Positions 8,568 through 49,505 of a DNA stretch of 49,505 nt are shown here, in pieces; within the stretch, counting starts at the first letter, position 1, and every line of letters starts with the position of its first letter. Source of the DNA: Alphaproteobacteria bacterium (GTDB lineage: Bacteria; Pseudomonadota; Alphaproteobacteria; DSM-16000; Inquilinaceae). The stretch lies in assembly GCA_028281265.1 (NCBI GenBank), contig JANQKE010000124.1, positions 1 to 49,505 on the forward strand. Direction: 5' to 3'. The position numbers were made by a program, and so were the translations under genes. Below the pieces are notes generated by a model. The model saw only the letters and a list, made by a program, of their open reading frames with translations, did no database searches and was not told where the DNA came from.

Positions 8568-8674
8568 CTAGAGCAAGATGACAAGAGAATGACTCACCCT
8601 CATGTCATCTTGCTCTCCAAGGTTATAGTAAGAGCATCTTATCTGCGTTCAGATAACTCTATCTGAACGCAGGT
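8568..8674. repeat. Bipartite palindromic repeat element, copy A
   Basis: Two adjacent hairpins. The first has perfect 14-bp arms at 8570-8583 (agagcaagatgaca) and 8603-8616, with a 19-base loop; the second has perfect 13-bp arms at 8643-8655 (ctgcgttcagata) and 8660-8672, with loop actc. The left end reads ctagagca. The segment is much less GC-rich than its surroundings (25 G+C in the 60 bases from 8581 by my count). The same layout and the core GCGTTCAGAT...ATCTGAACGC occur at 30038-30141. I interpret it as an interspersed palindromic repeat, possibly mobilised in trans; no transposase is nearby. Confidence 0.7.
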
Positions 8675-8678
8675 TGAT

Positions 8679-8921
8679 CTAACCTGAGCCGTTAGGCTTG
8701 TCACCACCTAGCCTTTCTAGGACCGCCACTCGGACTTGCGCTTCGATCAGCCGATCGGTCGCATTGAGGTAACCAAGCATCTCGCGGATCTCGCCTTCGA
8801 GCGCGACGACCCGCTGGCGGAGCAGATCATGCTCCTTTTCGAGTTCACGGATTCTCCGGTCGACTGAGACGATCGAGGTGGCAAGGTGCAGTGCCGTCTT
8901 GGCCTTGCGCAACCATCCCAT
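8679..8921 (-). CDS. Small coiled-coil protein of unknown function
   Basis: An 80-residue protein starting MGWLRKAKTALHL. An amphipathic N terminus is followed by a heptad-like coiled coil from about residue 20 to 70 (RRIRELEKEHDLLRQRV, VALEGEIREML) and a short polar tail. The ATG at 8921 lies 2 bases after the stop codon of the preceding gene; a TTG at 8927 would overlap that stop. This tight spacing argues that both frames are real and translated together. I recognise no family. The stop codon lies about 5 bases from repeat copy A. Lower GC than neighbours suggests acquisition. Confidence 0.5.
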   Translation of the reverse strand: MGWLRKAKTALHLATSIVSVDRRIRELEKEHDLLRQRVVALEGEIREMLGYLNATDRLIEAQVRVAVLERLGGDKPNGSG

Positions 8922-27638: not shown

Positions 27639-27672
27639 ACGGCCATCGCGCCGGGCGGTAGTGAGGGGCGCC

Positions 27673-28722
27673 ATGGACTCCGTGCCGCCTCCATCTCCTC
27701 AACATCCTTCGGCACCGGCACCGCCGGCGGCCGTGATCGCATCACCGCCCCGGATGCCGCGGCCCGCCCGCCCGCTGATCAGTCTGGTCGTCCCGGTGCT
27801 CAACGAATGCACCGCGATCGACCGGTTCATCGGTGCCGTGGACGCCGCCTTGCGCGACCTGCCGGTCCGATGCGAGATCATCTTCGTCGACGATGGCAGC
27901 TCGGATGAGACATGGTCGGTGATCCGCCGGGCCGCCGGGTCGGATGACCGCCTCCGATGTCTGCGCCTGGCCCGGAACCACGGTAAGGAGGCCGCGCTGA
28001 CCGCGGGTCTCGATCATGCGCGGGGCGATGCCGTCATCCCCATGGATGTCGACCTGCAAGACCCGCCCGCGCTCGTGCCCGAGATGATCGAGCGCTGGCG
28101 CGACGGGTTCGATGTGGTCAACGCGCGACGTGCCGACCGATCGGGTGACGGCTGGGTGAAGCGCAGCACCGCCCGGCTGTTCTATGCGACGTTCAACATC
28201 CTGTCGCCGACCGTGAAGCTGATCCCCGACGTCGGCGATTTCCGTCTGCTGGATCGGCGGGTGGTGGATACGCTGCGCAGCATCCGCGAACGTAACCGCT
28301 TCATGAAGGGCATCTTTGCCTGGGTGGGCTTTGCCATGACGACGGTCGATTACCAGCGACCGGCGCGGCGCGACGGGGCGTCGAAATGGTCGACGTTGCG
28401 GCTTGTCGGTCTGGCGATGGACGGGATCTTCGGCTTCTCACCCGTTCCGCTGCGGATCATGCTGCTGGTCGGGCTGATCATGACTCTGCTGGCCTTTGCC
28501 TATGGCGCCTGGCTGGTGGCGCGCACCTTGATCTTCGGGATCGACGTCGCCGGCTATGCGTCCCTGATGACGGCGTTGTTGTTCCTGGGCGGCATGCAGA
28601 TCGCGGCGATCGCCCTGGTCGGCGAATATGTCGGCCGTATCCTGACGGAAACCCAAGCCCGCCCGATCTACATCGTCAGCGAGACCGTCGGCCTCCCCGC
28701 CGCCGAGGCGGGCGACCGGTGA
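27673..28722 (+). CDS. Family 2 glycosyltransferase, GtrB/dolichol-phosphate-sugar synthase-like
   Basis: A 349-residue membrane-associated GT2 enzyme that should transfer a sugar from a nucleotide-sugar to a polyprenyl phosphate on the cytoplasmic face. The GT-A domain (about 35-230) has LISLVVPVLNE, FVDDGSSDET and the metal-binding MDVDLQDPP. Two C-terminal helices (LLVGLIMTLLAFAYGAWL and a second around 300-325) are typical of GtrB/ArnC. ATG 27673 has GAGGGG upstream; GTG 27661 is an alternative. It overlaps the GtrA gene (TGATG). With its two neighbours it forms a three-component sugar-addition cassette. Confidence 0.9.
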   Translation: MDSVPPPSPQHPSAPAPPAAVIASPPRMPRPARPLISLVVPVLNECTAIDRFIGAVDAALRDLPVRCEIIFVDDGSSDETWSVIRRAAGSDDRLRCLRLARNHGKEAALTAGLDHARGDAVIPMDVDLQDPPALVPEMIERWRDGFDVVNARRADRSGDGWVKRSTARLFYATFNILSPTVKLIPDVGDFRLLDRRVVDTLRSIRERNRFMKGIFAWVGFAMTTVDYQRPARRDGASKWSTLRLVGLAMDGIFGFSPVPLRIMLLVGLIMTLLAFAYGAWLVARTLIFGIDVAGYASLMTALLFLGGMQIAAIALVGEYVGRILTETQARPIYIVSETVGLPAAEAGDR

Positions 28723-29153
28723 TGCCGGGCGGACGCCTCCGGCGGGAAGTCGGCCGCGTTGCCCGGTTCGGCATCGTCGGTGTCGTCGCGACGGTGGTCC
28801 ATGTCGCCGTGGCCTTCGCCGTCCTGGCGGTCGTCGGCCCCGTGGTGGCCGCGGTCATCGGCTTCCTGGCCGCCAACGGCGTTTCCTATCTGGGTCATCG
28901 GCTCTGGACGTTCCGCGAAACGCAGCGCTCGGTGATCGACGGTGCCTGGCGCCATCTGGTGGTCTCCGCCTTCGGGATGGGGATCAACGTCGCCATGGTG
29001 GCCTGTCTGGGCTATCTCGGCGCGCCGGCGCAGGCAGCGGTTCTGGCCGGTGCGCTGGTGGCACCGCCCTTGACCTATCTGGGCGCGCGGCACTGGGCCT
29101 TTGCCGTGTCCAGGCCTACGGCGATGCCCGGAGCCGATCGGCAGGCCCGGTGA
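28722..29153 (+). CDS. GtrA-family membrane protein, putative polyprenyl-phosphate-sugar flippase
   Basis: A 143-residue protein with four predicted helices. The GtrA pattern is clear: RFGIVGVVATVVHVAVAF in helix 1, AANGVSYLGHRLWTFRE after helix 2, and the C-terminal TYLGARHWAF. GtrA proteins are thought to move the lipid-linked sugar from the inner to the outer face of the cytoplasmic membrane. Its start codon overlaps the stop of the GT2 gene. Confidence 0.9.
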   Translation: MPGGRLRREVGRVARFGIVGVVATVVHVAVAFAVLAVVGPVVAAVIGFLAANGVSYLGHRLWTFRETQRSVIDGAWRHLVVSAFGMGINVAMVACLGYLGAPAQAAVLAGALVAPPLTYLGARHWAFAVSRPTAMPGADRQAR

Positions 29154-29220: not shown

Positions 29221-30843
29221 GTGATCGGGCGTCTGCTCGGCGGTGTCCGGGCTCGCCCCCGCCTGTCGCTCGCGCTGCTGGCGCTGGGTCAGTTCCTGGC
29301 ATGGTGGGCGGCCGCGGCCATGACCCAGGCGACCCTGCCGTTGGACATGATGGAGGCGACCGCTTGGGGGCCGGGGTGGCAACTCGTCTACTACAAGCAT
29401 CCCCCCTTGCCGGCCTGGATGGCCGAGGCCCTGATCACCGTCGTCGGCCGGCGCGATTGGATGCTGATGGCGCTGGGCCCGCTGTTCGTCGGCGTGACGA
29501 TGCTGATCGTGTGGCGATTGGCGATCCGGCTGCTGGATCCGGTCCGTGCGCTTGCCGCGGTGGCGGTGTTTACCGGCATCCTCTACTTCACGGTCTTCGC
29601 CGCTGAGTTCAATCACAACGTCGCGCTGTACCCGTTCTGGGCCGGCGTGATCGTCTTCGGCCATCACGCGCTGAAGCGGGGGGCGACCGGATCCTGGCTA
29701 CTGGCGGCATTGTGCGCGGCGGTCGGCGTCTATGCCAAATACGCCATCCTCCTGCCGGTGGGGATGCTGCTGCTGATCGCCCTGGCCGATCCGGTGGCGC
29801 GCCGGGTCTGGCGTCGCCCGGGCCCCTATCTCGGCGCCATGCTCGGGCTGCTGGTGACCGGTCCGCATCTGTGGGCGCTGTGGCGGAGCGAGTTCGCCCC
29901 GCTGCGCTACGCCGCGTCCCGAGCGGTGAATGCGGATGGCTGGACCGATCACATCCTGTTCCCCCTCAACTTCGCCGCAGCACAGATCCTCGCGCTGCTG
30001 GGTGCGCTGCTGCTGGTCGGCCTGCTGCGGCTGCCTGGATCAGCTTACCGCGTTCGGATGGACTCATCTGAACGCGGTAAGCTGATCTGTTCTGAAGAGT
30101 TAGAGCCTCCTATCTGCGTCCGTTCGGACGCGAGATGCTCTAGCCGGGCCTCTCCCGCCCTGCCGGCGTGCCCGGTGGATCGGTTCGACCGGCGCTACGT
30201 GCTCGCGATGACAGGTGGGCCGTTGCTGATCACCATGATCGGCTCCGCCCTGACGGGTCAGGAGGCGCGCAGCATGTGGGGGGCGCCGATGTGGCCGACG
30301 GTGGGCATCGCCCTGATGCTGACCGTCGGTGCCGGTCCGCTGACCGGATCGTCGCTGCGCCGGTTCACGGTCGGCTGGGTGGGTCTGACCGTCTGCTTGC
30401 TGGCGGCCATGGTGGCCGGCACTCTGTTCGGGACCCACGTGACCGGGCGCGGCGACCGGGTCAACTGGCCGGCCGTCGCGGTGGCCGATGCCGCAGAGCG
30501 GGCTTGGCACCGCCGGATGGGTGAGGCTCCGATCGACATCGTGACCGGGCCGATGTGGAGCGCCGGCGCGGTGGCCTTCTACGGCACCGGTCGCCCGCCG
30601 GTCCTTCTGAACGGCGATCCGGCCCTCAGCCCCTGGGTCCCCGACGCGGCCCTTGCCGGTGGCGGTATCCTCGCGGTCTGGTGGATCCGGTGGGAGTGGC
30701 AGGAAGACACCGCTCTGCCCGATTGGCTCGGTCGGACGGGCCGGCAGTTCGTCCCTCTGGCCCCCGTCACCGTCCCTTGGGAAACGGGGGCGGACCTCCC
30801 TCCGGTCCGGATCGGATTGGCGGTGTCCGCTCCGCTCCGGTGA
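29221..30843 (+). CDS. GT-C fold glycosyltransferase (PMT/ArnT-like), interrupted in frame by a palindromic repeat
   Basis: A 540-residue polytopic protein starting with GTG at 29221. The first periplasmic loop has MMEATAWGP and YYKHPPLPAWM, typical of family 39/PMT_2 transferases that use a polyprenyl-phosphate sugar as donor. About ten hydrophobic helices are visible. Between residues of about 273 and 307 the coding sequence runs through repeat element copy B (30038-30141), giving a Cys/Ser/Glu-rich segment (GSAYRVRMDSSERGKLI and onward) unlike the rest. The reading frame stays open, and the downstream hydrophobic region (RFDRRYVLAMTGGPLLITM) continues normally. Function may be kept if the loop is tolerated. 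Partner of the GT2 and GtrA genes. Confidence 0.8.
   Translation: MIGRLLGGVRARPRLSLALLALGQFLAWWAAAAMTQATLPLDMMEATAWGPGWQLVYYKHPPLPAWMAEALITVVGRRDWMLMALGPLFVGVTMLIVWRLAIRLLDPVRALAAVAVFTGILYFTVFAAEFNHNVALYPFWAGVIVFGHHALKRGATGSWLLAALCAAVGVYAKYAILLPVGMLLLIALADPVARRVWRRPGPYLGAMLGLLVTGPHLWALWRSEFAPLRYAASRAVNADGWTDHILFPLNFAAAQILALLGALLLVGLLRLPGSAYRVRMDSSERGKLICSEELEPPICVRSDARCSSRASPALPACPVDRFDRRYVLAMTGGPLLITMIGSALTGQEARSMWGAPMWPTVGIALMLTVGAGPLTGSSLRRFTVGWVGLTVCLLAAMVAGTLFGTHVTGRGDRVNWPAVAVADAAERAWHRRMGEAPIDIVTGPMWSAGAVAFYGTGRPPVLLNGDPALSPWVPDAALAGGGILAVWWIRWEWQEDTALPDWLGRTGRQFVPLAPVTVPWETGADLPPVRIGLAVSAPLR
30038..30141. repeat. Bipartite palindromic repeat element, copy B, inside a coding sequence
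   Basis: Hairpin one: arms 30038-30060 (gatcagcttaccgcgttcgg + atg) and 30065-30087, 23 bp with one G:T mismatch and a 4-base loop. Hairpin two: an imperfect stem between about 30102 and 30139 around tctgcgtccgttcggacgcga, ending gctctag. Reverse-complemented, the element reads ctagagca-hairpin-gctct-spacer-hairpin with core gcgttcagat, the same plan as copy A at 8568-8674. The precise ends and any target duplication cannot be fixed from one copy. Confidence 0.75.
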
Positions 30844-30943: not shown

Positions 30944-32701
30944 TTAAAAGACGCGGAGCCAGTCCGCAGGCCACCGGCTGTCGGCGGTTGCACCATGGCC
31001 GTGGATCACCAGACGGCTGGCTGAGATCGGGGGTCTGAACAGGTTCAGTTGTCGACCGCCAACCCTCATCTCCAGAAGACCAGCGCCATCCGCATCGAAC
31101 GCGCGGATGGTGAAGTATCGCGGGTAGTCCTCGATACCCCATAACGGAATAGCGCTGATGCGGCCAATCTTGAAGCCGCGAACACGTCGCGTGTCATTGA
31201 ACTCAACCTGAACCGCTTGTCCACCAGCCGGTTGGGCGGAGAGCATTGTGTAGGCGACACCTTCCTCCATGACGGATAGGCGGCTGTGGTAGGCGGCAAA
31301 GGCAAGCGCCGCCGCGAAGAACACCGTCGCGGCCATATGCGTCAGCGCCCGTCTCCCCAGGCAAAGCACCACCAGACCCAGCAGCACGCAAGCGCACCAC
31401 AGCAGCAGGTGCAGCGCCCGACCATCATCGAAGACCATGACATTGCGAAGGGTGAACCGGTCCCACATCGCCCAAAGTGATGGGTTCAAGGGCAAGTTCA
31501 GATGATGATGTAGGGTGTCGTACGTGGCCGAATGGAAGCGATTGGTCAGGAAGTCATTCGGCCGCAGAAACACATAAAAAGCGTTCAGCGCCGTGATGGC
31601 GGCCAAGGGCAAGGTTGCGGCGGCTTTCCAGATCGGTGCGCCATGATGCCACCAGTAGGCCGCCCCGATGACGATGGCCGGCACAACGGCGACCCAGAAG
31701 CGCGCTGTATGGGATTCCGATGCAGTGCCCCACATCATCGTGGCCAGATAAGCGACGACGGCCAGAAGGCCAATCGACAAGATGGCATTGCCCCGGATGG
31801 TCCCGGCGATGAGACCTGCGAGACCCAATAGAGCCAGCGGGTTGTAGAGAATTAACCCATGCCTGTAGCCGAGGAGTTGAACCGCCAGCCGGTCCCCGAG
31901 ATCATCCCATGACACCCTAACGGTTGCCCGCGAACTCCCCAGCAAGCTCCCCGATACGGCGTACTGGTATTGGGCGAACACGAAGACGACCACCCCCAGG
32001 ATCGCCAACAGCACCGCCTGTTGCCACAGGCGTAGAGGACGTTCCCGCAGCACTCGGTAGGCTGTTGCCAGTCCTAAGACGATCACGATGCCCACACTAC
32101 GCAAGTGGATGAAGGGTAGCAGGCAAAGCACGATGAAGATCACGATCACTGCCGTAGGCTCAAGCCGCGGCCGGGACAGCACGGCCAACCCGATCGCAAA
32201 CAGGCTGAACAGCCAGATCTCGGCGAAGATGAGTTCGAGATAGAAGATCGTTGGGATCGTCAGGCAGAAGACGATCACCCACACGGCCGAGCGGAGCGGC
32301 AATGCGAGGTTCCGTAGGGCGGAAACCAAGGCGACGGCGCCGACCAGGCCGACGAGCACATGCGCGAACCGGGCACCGTCGAGTTGAAACAGACCGGCAA
32401 ACGGCGCGATCAAGGCGGCATGGAACACCGAGTGAATGCCATGGCCGGCCGACAGGCCTCGGATGCCCAGATCGGCCAGCCACACGTCCCACTCGGCCTG
32501 CGGTAGCTGGAGATCACCCCGCAGCCAGATCGAGATGCTGGCGAAAAGGTACCGTGTTTCGTCACCGGTGAAAGTCAGGCGCGGTAGCAGCAACGACCCC
32601 ACGGTGATCGCCATCACGACGATCGAAGCAGCGACGACGAACGGGTGCTCGTCGCGGAATCGGTGCGCAGCGGTGAGGGTAAACGAGAGTCTGATGCGCA
32701 T
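30944..32701 (-). CDS. Polytopic membrane protein, probable GT-C type glycosyltransferase
   Basis: From ATG 32701 the protein has 585 residues with about eleven to thirteen hydrophobic helices. The first extracytoplasmic loop has LTFTGDETRYLF, which resembles the acidic catalytic motif of GT-C transferases. The C terminus (about 490-585) is a soluble beta-rich domain (VQVEFNDTRRVRGFKIG, FTIRAFDADGAGLLEMRVGG). I cannot name a substrate. The frame is open to 33109, but the upstream part is Arg/Pro-rich and lies antiparallel-free over a transporter remnant. Base composition is lower in GC than neighbours (31 G+C in the 60 bases from 31501, against 41 in 60 from 26041 by my count), suggesting transfer. 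Convergent with the preceding GT-C gene. Confidence 0.7.
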   Translation of the reverse strand: MRIRLSFTLTAAHRFRDEHPFVVAASIVVMAITVGSLLLPRLTFTGDETRYLFASISIWLRGDLQLPQAEWDVWLADLGIRGLSAGHGIHSVFHAALIAPFAGLFQLDGARFAHVLVGLVGAVALVSALRNLALPLRSAVWVIVFCLTIPTIFYLELIFAEIWLFSLFAIGLAVLSRPRLEPTAVIVIFIVLCLLPFIHLRSVGIVIVLGLATAYRVLRERPLRLWQQAVLLAILGVVVFVFAQYQYAVSGSLLGSSRATVRVSWDDLGDRLAVQLLGYRHGLILYNPLALLGLAGLIAGTIRGNAILSIGLLAVVAYLATMMWGTASESHTARFWVAVVPAIVIGAAYWWHHGAPIWKAAATLPLAAITALNAFYVFLRPNDFLTNRFHSATYDTLHHHLNLPLNPSLWAMWDRFTLRNVMVFDDGRALHLLLWCACVLLGLVVLCLGRRALTHMAATVFFAAALAFAAYHSRLSVMEEGVAYTMLSAQPAGGQAVQVEFNDTRRVRGFKIGRISAIPLWGIEDYPRYFTIRAFDADGAGLLEMRVGGRQLNLFRPPISASRLVIHGHGATADSRWPADWLRVF

Positions 32702-32731
32702 GTAGGGTTCGCCCGCGGTATCGGGCTCTGT

Positions 32732-32762
32732 GCCGGATCGGGGCAGCGAGCCCCGATCCGGC
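32732..32762 (-). promoter_or_regulatory. 13-bp perfect hairpin in the leader of the GT-C-like gene
   Basis: gccggatcggggc at 32732-32744 and its exact complement at 32750-32762 enclose a 5-base loop (agcga). The structure lies 31 bases upstream of the ATG at 32701. It could terminate transcription from upstream or act in the leader; no T-tract follows. Confidence 0.4.
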
Positions 32763-32879
32763 ATCGAGGCTCCTCGGAAATACACCGTTCCGCATACATG
32801 GAGGAACGAACGCCCGGTGTCGCGTCGTCGCCTCGGCGTTCGGATTGCCAAGCAGCGCGACGACAATCCCGGACCAGGT

Positions 32880-33116
32880 CTATGCCGCCGGTTGCGGCGC
32901 ACGGGTGAGCGGGGGCTGGCGGAGTTCTTCCAGAGCGTGGCGGATGATCTGGATGGCAGAATACGGAAGCGACCCCGCCCTCGCGCCGGCGACCAGAACG
33001 TCCGGCCGGCCCGTGGCGGTGATCCCGGCCATCGCCACCGCCCCATTGCCGATCGCATCGTTACGGAGAACGGCTGAACGGTCGAGCCGCCTCGGTTTGG
33101 CCGGATCACAGATCAT
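32880..33116 (-). pseudogene. C-terminal remnant of a cation diffusion facilitator (Co/Zn/Cd efflux) protein
   Basis: The 78-codon frame contains RNDAIGNGAVAMAGITATGRPDVLVAG followed by SAIQIIRHALEELR, which matches the penultimate and last helices of small CDF-family cation transporters (typical form RNDAIGNxAVxxAGxGVxxTGxxWPDLIVA...). The first helices, the His/Asp metal site and the start region are missing. The part before RND does not look like the family, and several helix positions are eroded (a short loss before PDVLVAG, ARAGSLPY in place of a hydrophobic stretch). I call it a truncated, decayed gene. The assignment rests on remembered family pattern, not on an alignment. Confidence 0.5.
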
Positions 33117-48766: not shown

Positions 48767-49505
48767 ATGCCCGGAACCCTCACTCCGCTTAGCACGTTCG
48801 GTTCGACGACCCGTACCTATGACGGGATCGACGACAGCGTAGTCCTGAATCATGACCCGCTCTACGAGATCGAAAACGGTACCCTGAGCTTCTGGTTCAA
48901 GGCGGCGGAGGTCGCGAGCGAGCAGGGCTTGGTCTCCAAGGATTCGTCCGGTTTCGATGATGGCGGGCACCTGACGGTCAGGATCAAGAACGGGGACGTT
49001 AAGGTCCGGCTGCAGTCCGAGGACCATTCGTACAATCTGAACGGCGGTGACCTCCAGGGGGGGGAGTGGCATCACGTCGCCATCAGTTTTGGTGACCAGG
49101 GTTTCTCACTGTGGGTCGATGGCCAGGAAGTCGACAGCACCTCGACCACGACGGACATCGCGCCCAACCACGAACCGTGGGTGTTCGGTGCCGAGCAGAC
49201 CAACAGCGGTGACCTCGCCGCCGACCACCTGAAGAAGTTCTTCGAAGGAGAGATCGCGCGCGCAGCCTTGTTCGACGAGCAACTCGCCGACGAGGAGATC
49301 GAAGCGATCTTTGCCGCCGGCGAGGAGACGGAAGCCGGCGATGTGGATCCGGCGGATAGTTCCGACGATGACGACGACGGCTCCGACGACGATGACGACG
49401 GGGACGATGACGACGACGGCTCCGACGATGATGACGACGGGGACGATGACGACGACGGCTCCGACGACGATGACGACGGGGACGATGACGACGACGGCTC
49501 CGACG
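48767..49505 (+). CDS. LamG-like (concanavalin A fold) protein with Asp-rich repeats, incomplete at window end
   Basis: ATG 48767 follows an excellent ribosome site (GGAGG, 7 bases upstream). The visible 246 codons have no stop. Residues about 15-185 form a LamG/ConA-like domain: YDGIDDSVVL, GTLSFWFKA, GEWHHVAISF, SLWVDGQEVD and the closing FFEGEIARAALFDEQL. From residue about 199 the sequence is only Asp, Gly and Ser, in 13-residue units. No signal peptide is visible, so a type I secretion system with a C-terminal signal outside the window is a reasonable guess. Such proteins are often large calcium-binding surface or adhesion proteins. The rest is beyond the window. Confidence 0.8.
   Translation, partial: MPGTLTPLSTFGSTTRTYDGIDDSVVLNHDPLYEIENGTLSFWFKAAEVASEQGLVSKDSSGFDDGGHLTVRIKNGDVKVRLQSEDHSYNLNGGDLQGGEWHHVAISFGDQGFSLWVDGQEVDSTSTTTDIAPNHEPWVFGAEQTNSGDLAADHLKKFFEGEIARAALFDEQLADEEIEAIFAAGEETEAGDVDPADSSDDDDDGSDDDDDGDDDDDGSDDDDDGDDDDDGSDDDDDGDDDDDGSD
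49361..49505 (+). repeat. 39-bp near-identical tandem repeats encoding an Asp/Gly-rich tract
   Basis: Three full units at 49382-49420, 49421-49459 and 49460-49498 encode SDDDDDG-DDDDDG each. They follow a partial unit at 49361-49381 and run into the window edge. The first and third units are identical and the second differs at one visible base (gac to gat). Low divergence implies recent expansion or gene conversion. The acidic repeats resemble calcium-binding linker repeats. Confidence 0.9.

Follow-up and report, generated by a model that had tools for sequence, protein, structure and literature searches.

The described repeats that come closest to the one analysed here are the CIRs, the Caulobacter CcrM-associated intergenic repeats found in Caulobacter and Brucella (Chen and Shapiro 2003, as reviewed in PMC2229807 and PMC10969869), which are described as confined to intergenic DNA (PMC10969869) and as carrying multiple stops in each of the six frames (PMC2229807). 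The present repeat shares with them a length of about 110 bp, a pair of independent hairpin arms with a linker between them, a GANTC at a terminal loop and TA termini (PMC2229807), together with an alphaproteobacterial host and a nearly always intergenic position. It differs in that one copy lies in frame in a gene, with 130 of 137 placed clusters intergenic, and in that one frame is open both in that copy and in the family consensus. Because the strict-intergenic and six-frame-stop descriptors fail, the repeat is not filed here as a CIR, and its comparison with CIR1-4 is by description only. Nearly half of the palindromic elements of Rickettsia (RPEs) are genic and encode a conserved peptide (PMC10969869). 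The initial annotation compared our locus with these, and the likeness holds for the outcome, a palindromic repeat in frame in a protein gene that adds a short peptide segment. The repeat itself resembles a CIR rather than an RPE: it has two hairpins and CTAG ends, and only 1 of the 137 placed clusters is genic. RUP of Streptococcus pneumoniae, a 107-bp MITE at TA that is tied to an IS630 transposase (PMC2229807), is also similar but lies in intergenic DNA or in IS elements and has stops in all frames, whereas the transposase tie of the present repeat consists of a shared terminal motif only. ERIC, the Correia 107-bp repeats and QMITE of Coxiella are likewise non-autonomous, with TA or direct duplications and occasional in-frame fusions (PMC2229807, PMC5896051); compared by description, they differ in having unrelated hosts and in their lack of the CIR-like two-arm layout.

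The window is the whole stretch of DNA analysed, 49,505 nucleotides (contig C25) of a 4.33-Mb genome that is assembled in 232 contigs and 99.4% complete. Its relevant features are as follows.

27661-28722, plus strand: family 2 glycosyltransferase (PF00535, E 9.1e-30), first in an apparently intact three-gene cluster.
28386-29153, plus strand: GtrA-like membrane protein (PF04138, E 5e-21, residues 127-239); open reading frame as listed, the true start being probably near 28710.
29221-30843, plus strand: GT-C type glycosyltransferase gene (Pfam PMT_2), 540 aa, GTG start (translation, Pfam and homologue alignment).
30035-30143, plus strand: whole inserted element, 109 bp, with ends CTGG (altered CTAG) and CTAG (alignment to the repeat family).
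30035-30038: left-hand target site copy, which reads CTGG where the family ends in CTAG.
30038-30087, plus strand: hairpin 1, a near-perfect palindrome (minus-strand self match and fold).
30061-30065, plus strand: GACTC in the hairpin 1 loop, a putative GANTC (CcrM-type) methylation site (sequence).
30088-30099, plus strand: linker joining both hairpins (fold).
30100-30143, plus strand: hairpin 2, with right end GCTCTAG (fold).
30140-30143, no strand: right-hand CTAG, presumed target site copy with the TA duplicated (family ends CTAG...CTAG).

The glycosyltransferase frame was first described as intact-looking and crossed by the repeat without a stop codon, and this is borne out: 29221-30843 is open from end to end, its product matches PMT_2 (E 7.8e-28), the codon-model score is positive on both flanks of the element, and an alignment with eight homologues shows invariant residues retained along the entire protein. 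These features of an unbroken 540-aa frame, together with the intact GT2 and GtrA-like neighbours, argue against a decaying pseudogene that is open across the element by chance, a reading we hold to be improbable even though the closest homologues are remote and the gene is known from sequence alone. A PDB sequence search gave no match, and a search of the genome collection with the protein gave no close named homologue. Downstream, a 721-aa hydrophobic open reading frame (30944-33109, minus strand) is convergent with the glycosyltransferase gene and lacks a Pfam match, and at the far end of the window an array of 9- and 12-base units (49325-49505), whose translation in one frame would be Asp/Gly-rich, runs off the contig end.

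Homologues in the family, which are 31-36% identical over the whole length and up to 41% in the N-terminal part, align with residues 18-274 and 320-538 in the same frame. Between these aligned blocks they have 3-14 residues against 45-54 in the window protein, about 43 fewer, and the size gap is made up of the 35 residues of the element and a native loop that is some 7-8 residues longer. The clean gap anticipated at residues of about 273-307 is thus present, and the 35 residues occur in none of the homologues aligned, the nearest of which are about 36% identical. The initial annotation had put the addition in a loop between helices; the loop does sit between hydrophobic segments 251-269 and 327-345, with the refinement that it is longer than in the homologues without the element too. 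A single-sequence AlphaFold model, at a pLDDT of 43 too low for use, hints at a mostly non-helical stretch between helices 242-270 and 325-344. On this comparison, the 105 bp absent from the homologues is an insertion in the window gene; with nearest homologues only about 36% identical, the exact target and the duplication of TA at this gene are those that the family ends would suggest.

The bipartite palindrome that had been placed at 30038-30141 is real, but its limits were slightly short of the element at 30035-30143. The DNA fold of 30030-30150 is predicted at -40.8 kcal/mol, compared with -17.2 +/- 2.8 for shuffled sequences (z -8.6). When one 4-bp target copy is counted as host, the net insertion is 105 bp, or 35 codons, giving residues 273-307 (GSAYRVRMDSSERGKLICSEELEPPICVRSDARCS), which contain three cysteines as first noted and include the predicted tryptic peptide LICSEELEPPICVR; the segment is polar with a net charge of zero. 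Of the six reading frames across the element, only one is open. This copy is unique in its own genome, where the best other copy is 86% identical, and at about 85% identity to the consensus it is rather old: a quarter of the longer copies fall below 88% and half exceed 92.5%. An Rfam search returned sub-threshold microRNA matches only. A partial second copy is found elsewhere in the window (8575-8682, minus strand), comprising a hairpin 1 that is 90% identical and is joined to a palindrome ending TTGCTCTAG.

A chance palindrome is ruled out by recurrence of the sequence in its own genome, where a search with the window copy gave 396 first-look candidates (51 matches listed) and a search with a consensus query gave 409. 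Gene context was read in a 2.03-Mb sample (47% of the genome) whose contigs were partly chosen for carrying copies, and which holds 210 hits, grouped in 198 clusters. Most full copies measure 107 or 103 bp, within limits of 99 and 112, and they have no long open reading frame; 4-bp blocks (TTAT/ATAA) in the arms make the difference between the length classes. One frame of the family consensus is open, and the commonest open frame is stop-free in 31 of 97 copies. GANTC stands at the hairpin 1 loop position in 64 of 97. CTAG is present at both ends in 46 of about 100 full copies, and the terminal 15-mers (TAGATCAACCTGCGT and TAGAGCATCCTGCGT) agree at 13 of 15 positions as imperfect terminal inverted repeats. 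Tandem copies have one CTAG in common, as would result if one copy entered another's terminal CTAG at its TA. There are also 49-bp single-hairpin versions with CTAG on both sides (L041:12374-12422 and L089:958-1006), suggesting that hairpin 1 can move, or stay in place, without the rest of the element.

Copies are strongly depleted from genes. With gene calls from a home-made codon model (coding density 0.84, approximate), 130 of the 137 placeable clusters are intergenic, six lie over a gene end and one, the window copy, lies inside a called gene; a further 61 clusters, mostly young, are at contig edges and outside the 137. The genome count proposed at the outset therefore finds a large family that is nearly all intergenic, in which an in-frame copy is unusual. 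An automated continuous-frame test on 89 full placeable copies yielded one further candidate (C48:21486-21592, or L042:1486-1592), a recent, 96%-identical copy of 103 bp net length that interrupts an AbiEii-like gene and shifts its frame, leaving two sides that each match PF08843 separately and showing the losing outcome in contrast to the window gene. In the same sample, the gaps between convergent genes hold more than their share of copies, 44 of 129 where such gaps number 212 of 1360 (p 3e-7), which would fit a use as transcription terminators.

Part of the depletion is accounted for by target choice, since CTAG is 8.6-fold rarer in genes (0.090 per kb) than between them (0.776 per kb). Even so, 39% of CTAG sites are genic (153, against 243 intergenic) and only 1 of 137 copies is (p ~1e-27), so that selection must account for the remainder. 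The net length is divisible by three in 28 of 97 full copies, and 19 of the 582 combinations of copy, orientation and frame are both divisible and stop-free. The expected number of in-frame survivors is then 137 x 0.39 x 0.033, or about 1.7, a rough figure in that other repeats inflate the intergenic CTAG count, against one seen. These odds predict one or two in-frame survivors in the absence of any special mechanism.

At this site and frame, just one other of the 97 full copies would keep the gene open. Relative to the long-armed form, which is the more frequent, each arm of the window copy is one base short at a corresponding position; with just one of these differences the frame would be lost, and with both the stem remains paired. 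Its exact arms occur in no other copy in the genome, the nearest (on C214) having three mismatches. A palindrome-correcting replication event could yield both differences at once. Across the family, and mostly in intergenic copies, the arms show 59 two-sided pairing changes, compared with 16.7 expected for independent columns and 12 two-sided non-pairing changes. Such covariation is not proof of selection, as subfamily ancestry contributes.

These observations bear on whether selection keeps the insertion as an adaptive one, with the loop of 35 residues, the three cysteines in it or the GANTC hairpin altering the enzyme or its expression. The gene has stayed intact around a fairly old copy (about 85% identity to the consensus), and the stem is nearly perfect despite arms unlike those usual in the family, both of which such an account would explain. 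Against it, there is one copy in one species, the number of survivors agrees with the neutral expectation, and compensatory changes occur family-wide and mostly in intergenic copies, so a perfect stem needs no selection in the window gene; we therefore consider adaptation unlikely. We are similarly doubtful of a more specific proposal, that a CIR-like, CcrM-site-bearing repeat is now a stable functional protein loop whose paired one-base arm differences keep both hairpin and frame. If true, it would mark the first time that a CIR-type element has been put to use in a gene and would place a methylatable hairpin inside coding sequence.

The family has the traits of a miniature element (MITE): it is short, high in copy number and without a transposase of its own, with terminal inverted repeats and target-site duplication seen in the family and a duplication presumed at the window gene. 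IS630-family elements target TA, and IS630 itself targets CTAG. The genome has two DDE_3 (IS630) transposase fragments, both at contig edges, one of them followed by ...AACGCTCTAG, the same type of end as that of the repeat; no complete IS630 was found in the genome, where copies may be lost at contig breaks. That fragment (L170:1-220, contig C170) is followed by AACGCTCTAG and then by another palindromic repeat. At least three other repeat families start with CTAGAGC, namely CTAGAGCGTTTTCAGGGA (about 43-57 sites), CTAGAGCGGGAT and CTAGAGCAAGAT (for example at L061:94 and L059:1-170), and all of them apparently use CTAG ends. When empty sites were sought within other repeat families, the alignments obtained were noisy rather than clean, though consistent with insertion at CTAG-like ends. 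Beyond this genome, one genus of the same taxonomic family (G003) carries the repeat at identities reaching 97%, with weak matches in G006; searches of further members of that family did not find it. A Tepidamorphus MAG has a copy of about 95% identity. Falsiroseomonas, Roseomonas and further alphaproteobacterial records contain a related form that keeps the layout and has GAATC as its loop motif. Of 141 other genomes from the class, 3 gave relatives in a search with a covariance model at strict settings. High identity across genera combined with patchy presence fits mobility.

A REP/RAYT-type element in place of an IS630-type MITE would also be a short, palindromic, high-copy repeat, but CTAG at both ends and the sharing of TA fit a TA-targeting transposase, making this alternative very improbable. 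A REP/RAYT origin was rejected on a search for the Y1 (RAYT) transposase, PF01797, which gave no match in the 99.4% complete genome. Least credible of all is an artefact in which two contigs were joined at a repeat, for although many contigs of the assembly do end within near-identical copies, the window copy differs by at least 14% from all others and the sequences that flank it are parts of a single gene in a single frame.

We conclude that the locus very probably holds a tolerated, fairly old in-frame MITE insertion, a chance survivor that calls for no special mechanism. A non-autonomous MITE of CIR-like build, probably mobilised by a transposase of the IS630/Tc1-mariner type, would have entered a CTAG at its TA (codons CCT AGC), within the loop that follows hydrophobic segment 251-269. 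Either from the start or through later change, the copy would have measured 105 bp net and offered one frame without stops in the orientation of insertion, so that the gene stayed in frame and gained 35 polar residues. The enlarged gene was presumably not selected against, and its product would be expressed and tolerated.

In-frame palindromic mobile repeats are a proposed route to new protein segments, documented mainly in Rickettsia and in few other bacteria. Here a CIR-like repeat of about 400 copies gives countable odds, with genes nearly free of the repeat and a single in-frame survivor, as the frame arithmetic predicts. CIR-type repeats have been stated in the literature never to be genic, and the window copy is an exception.
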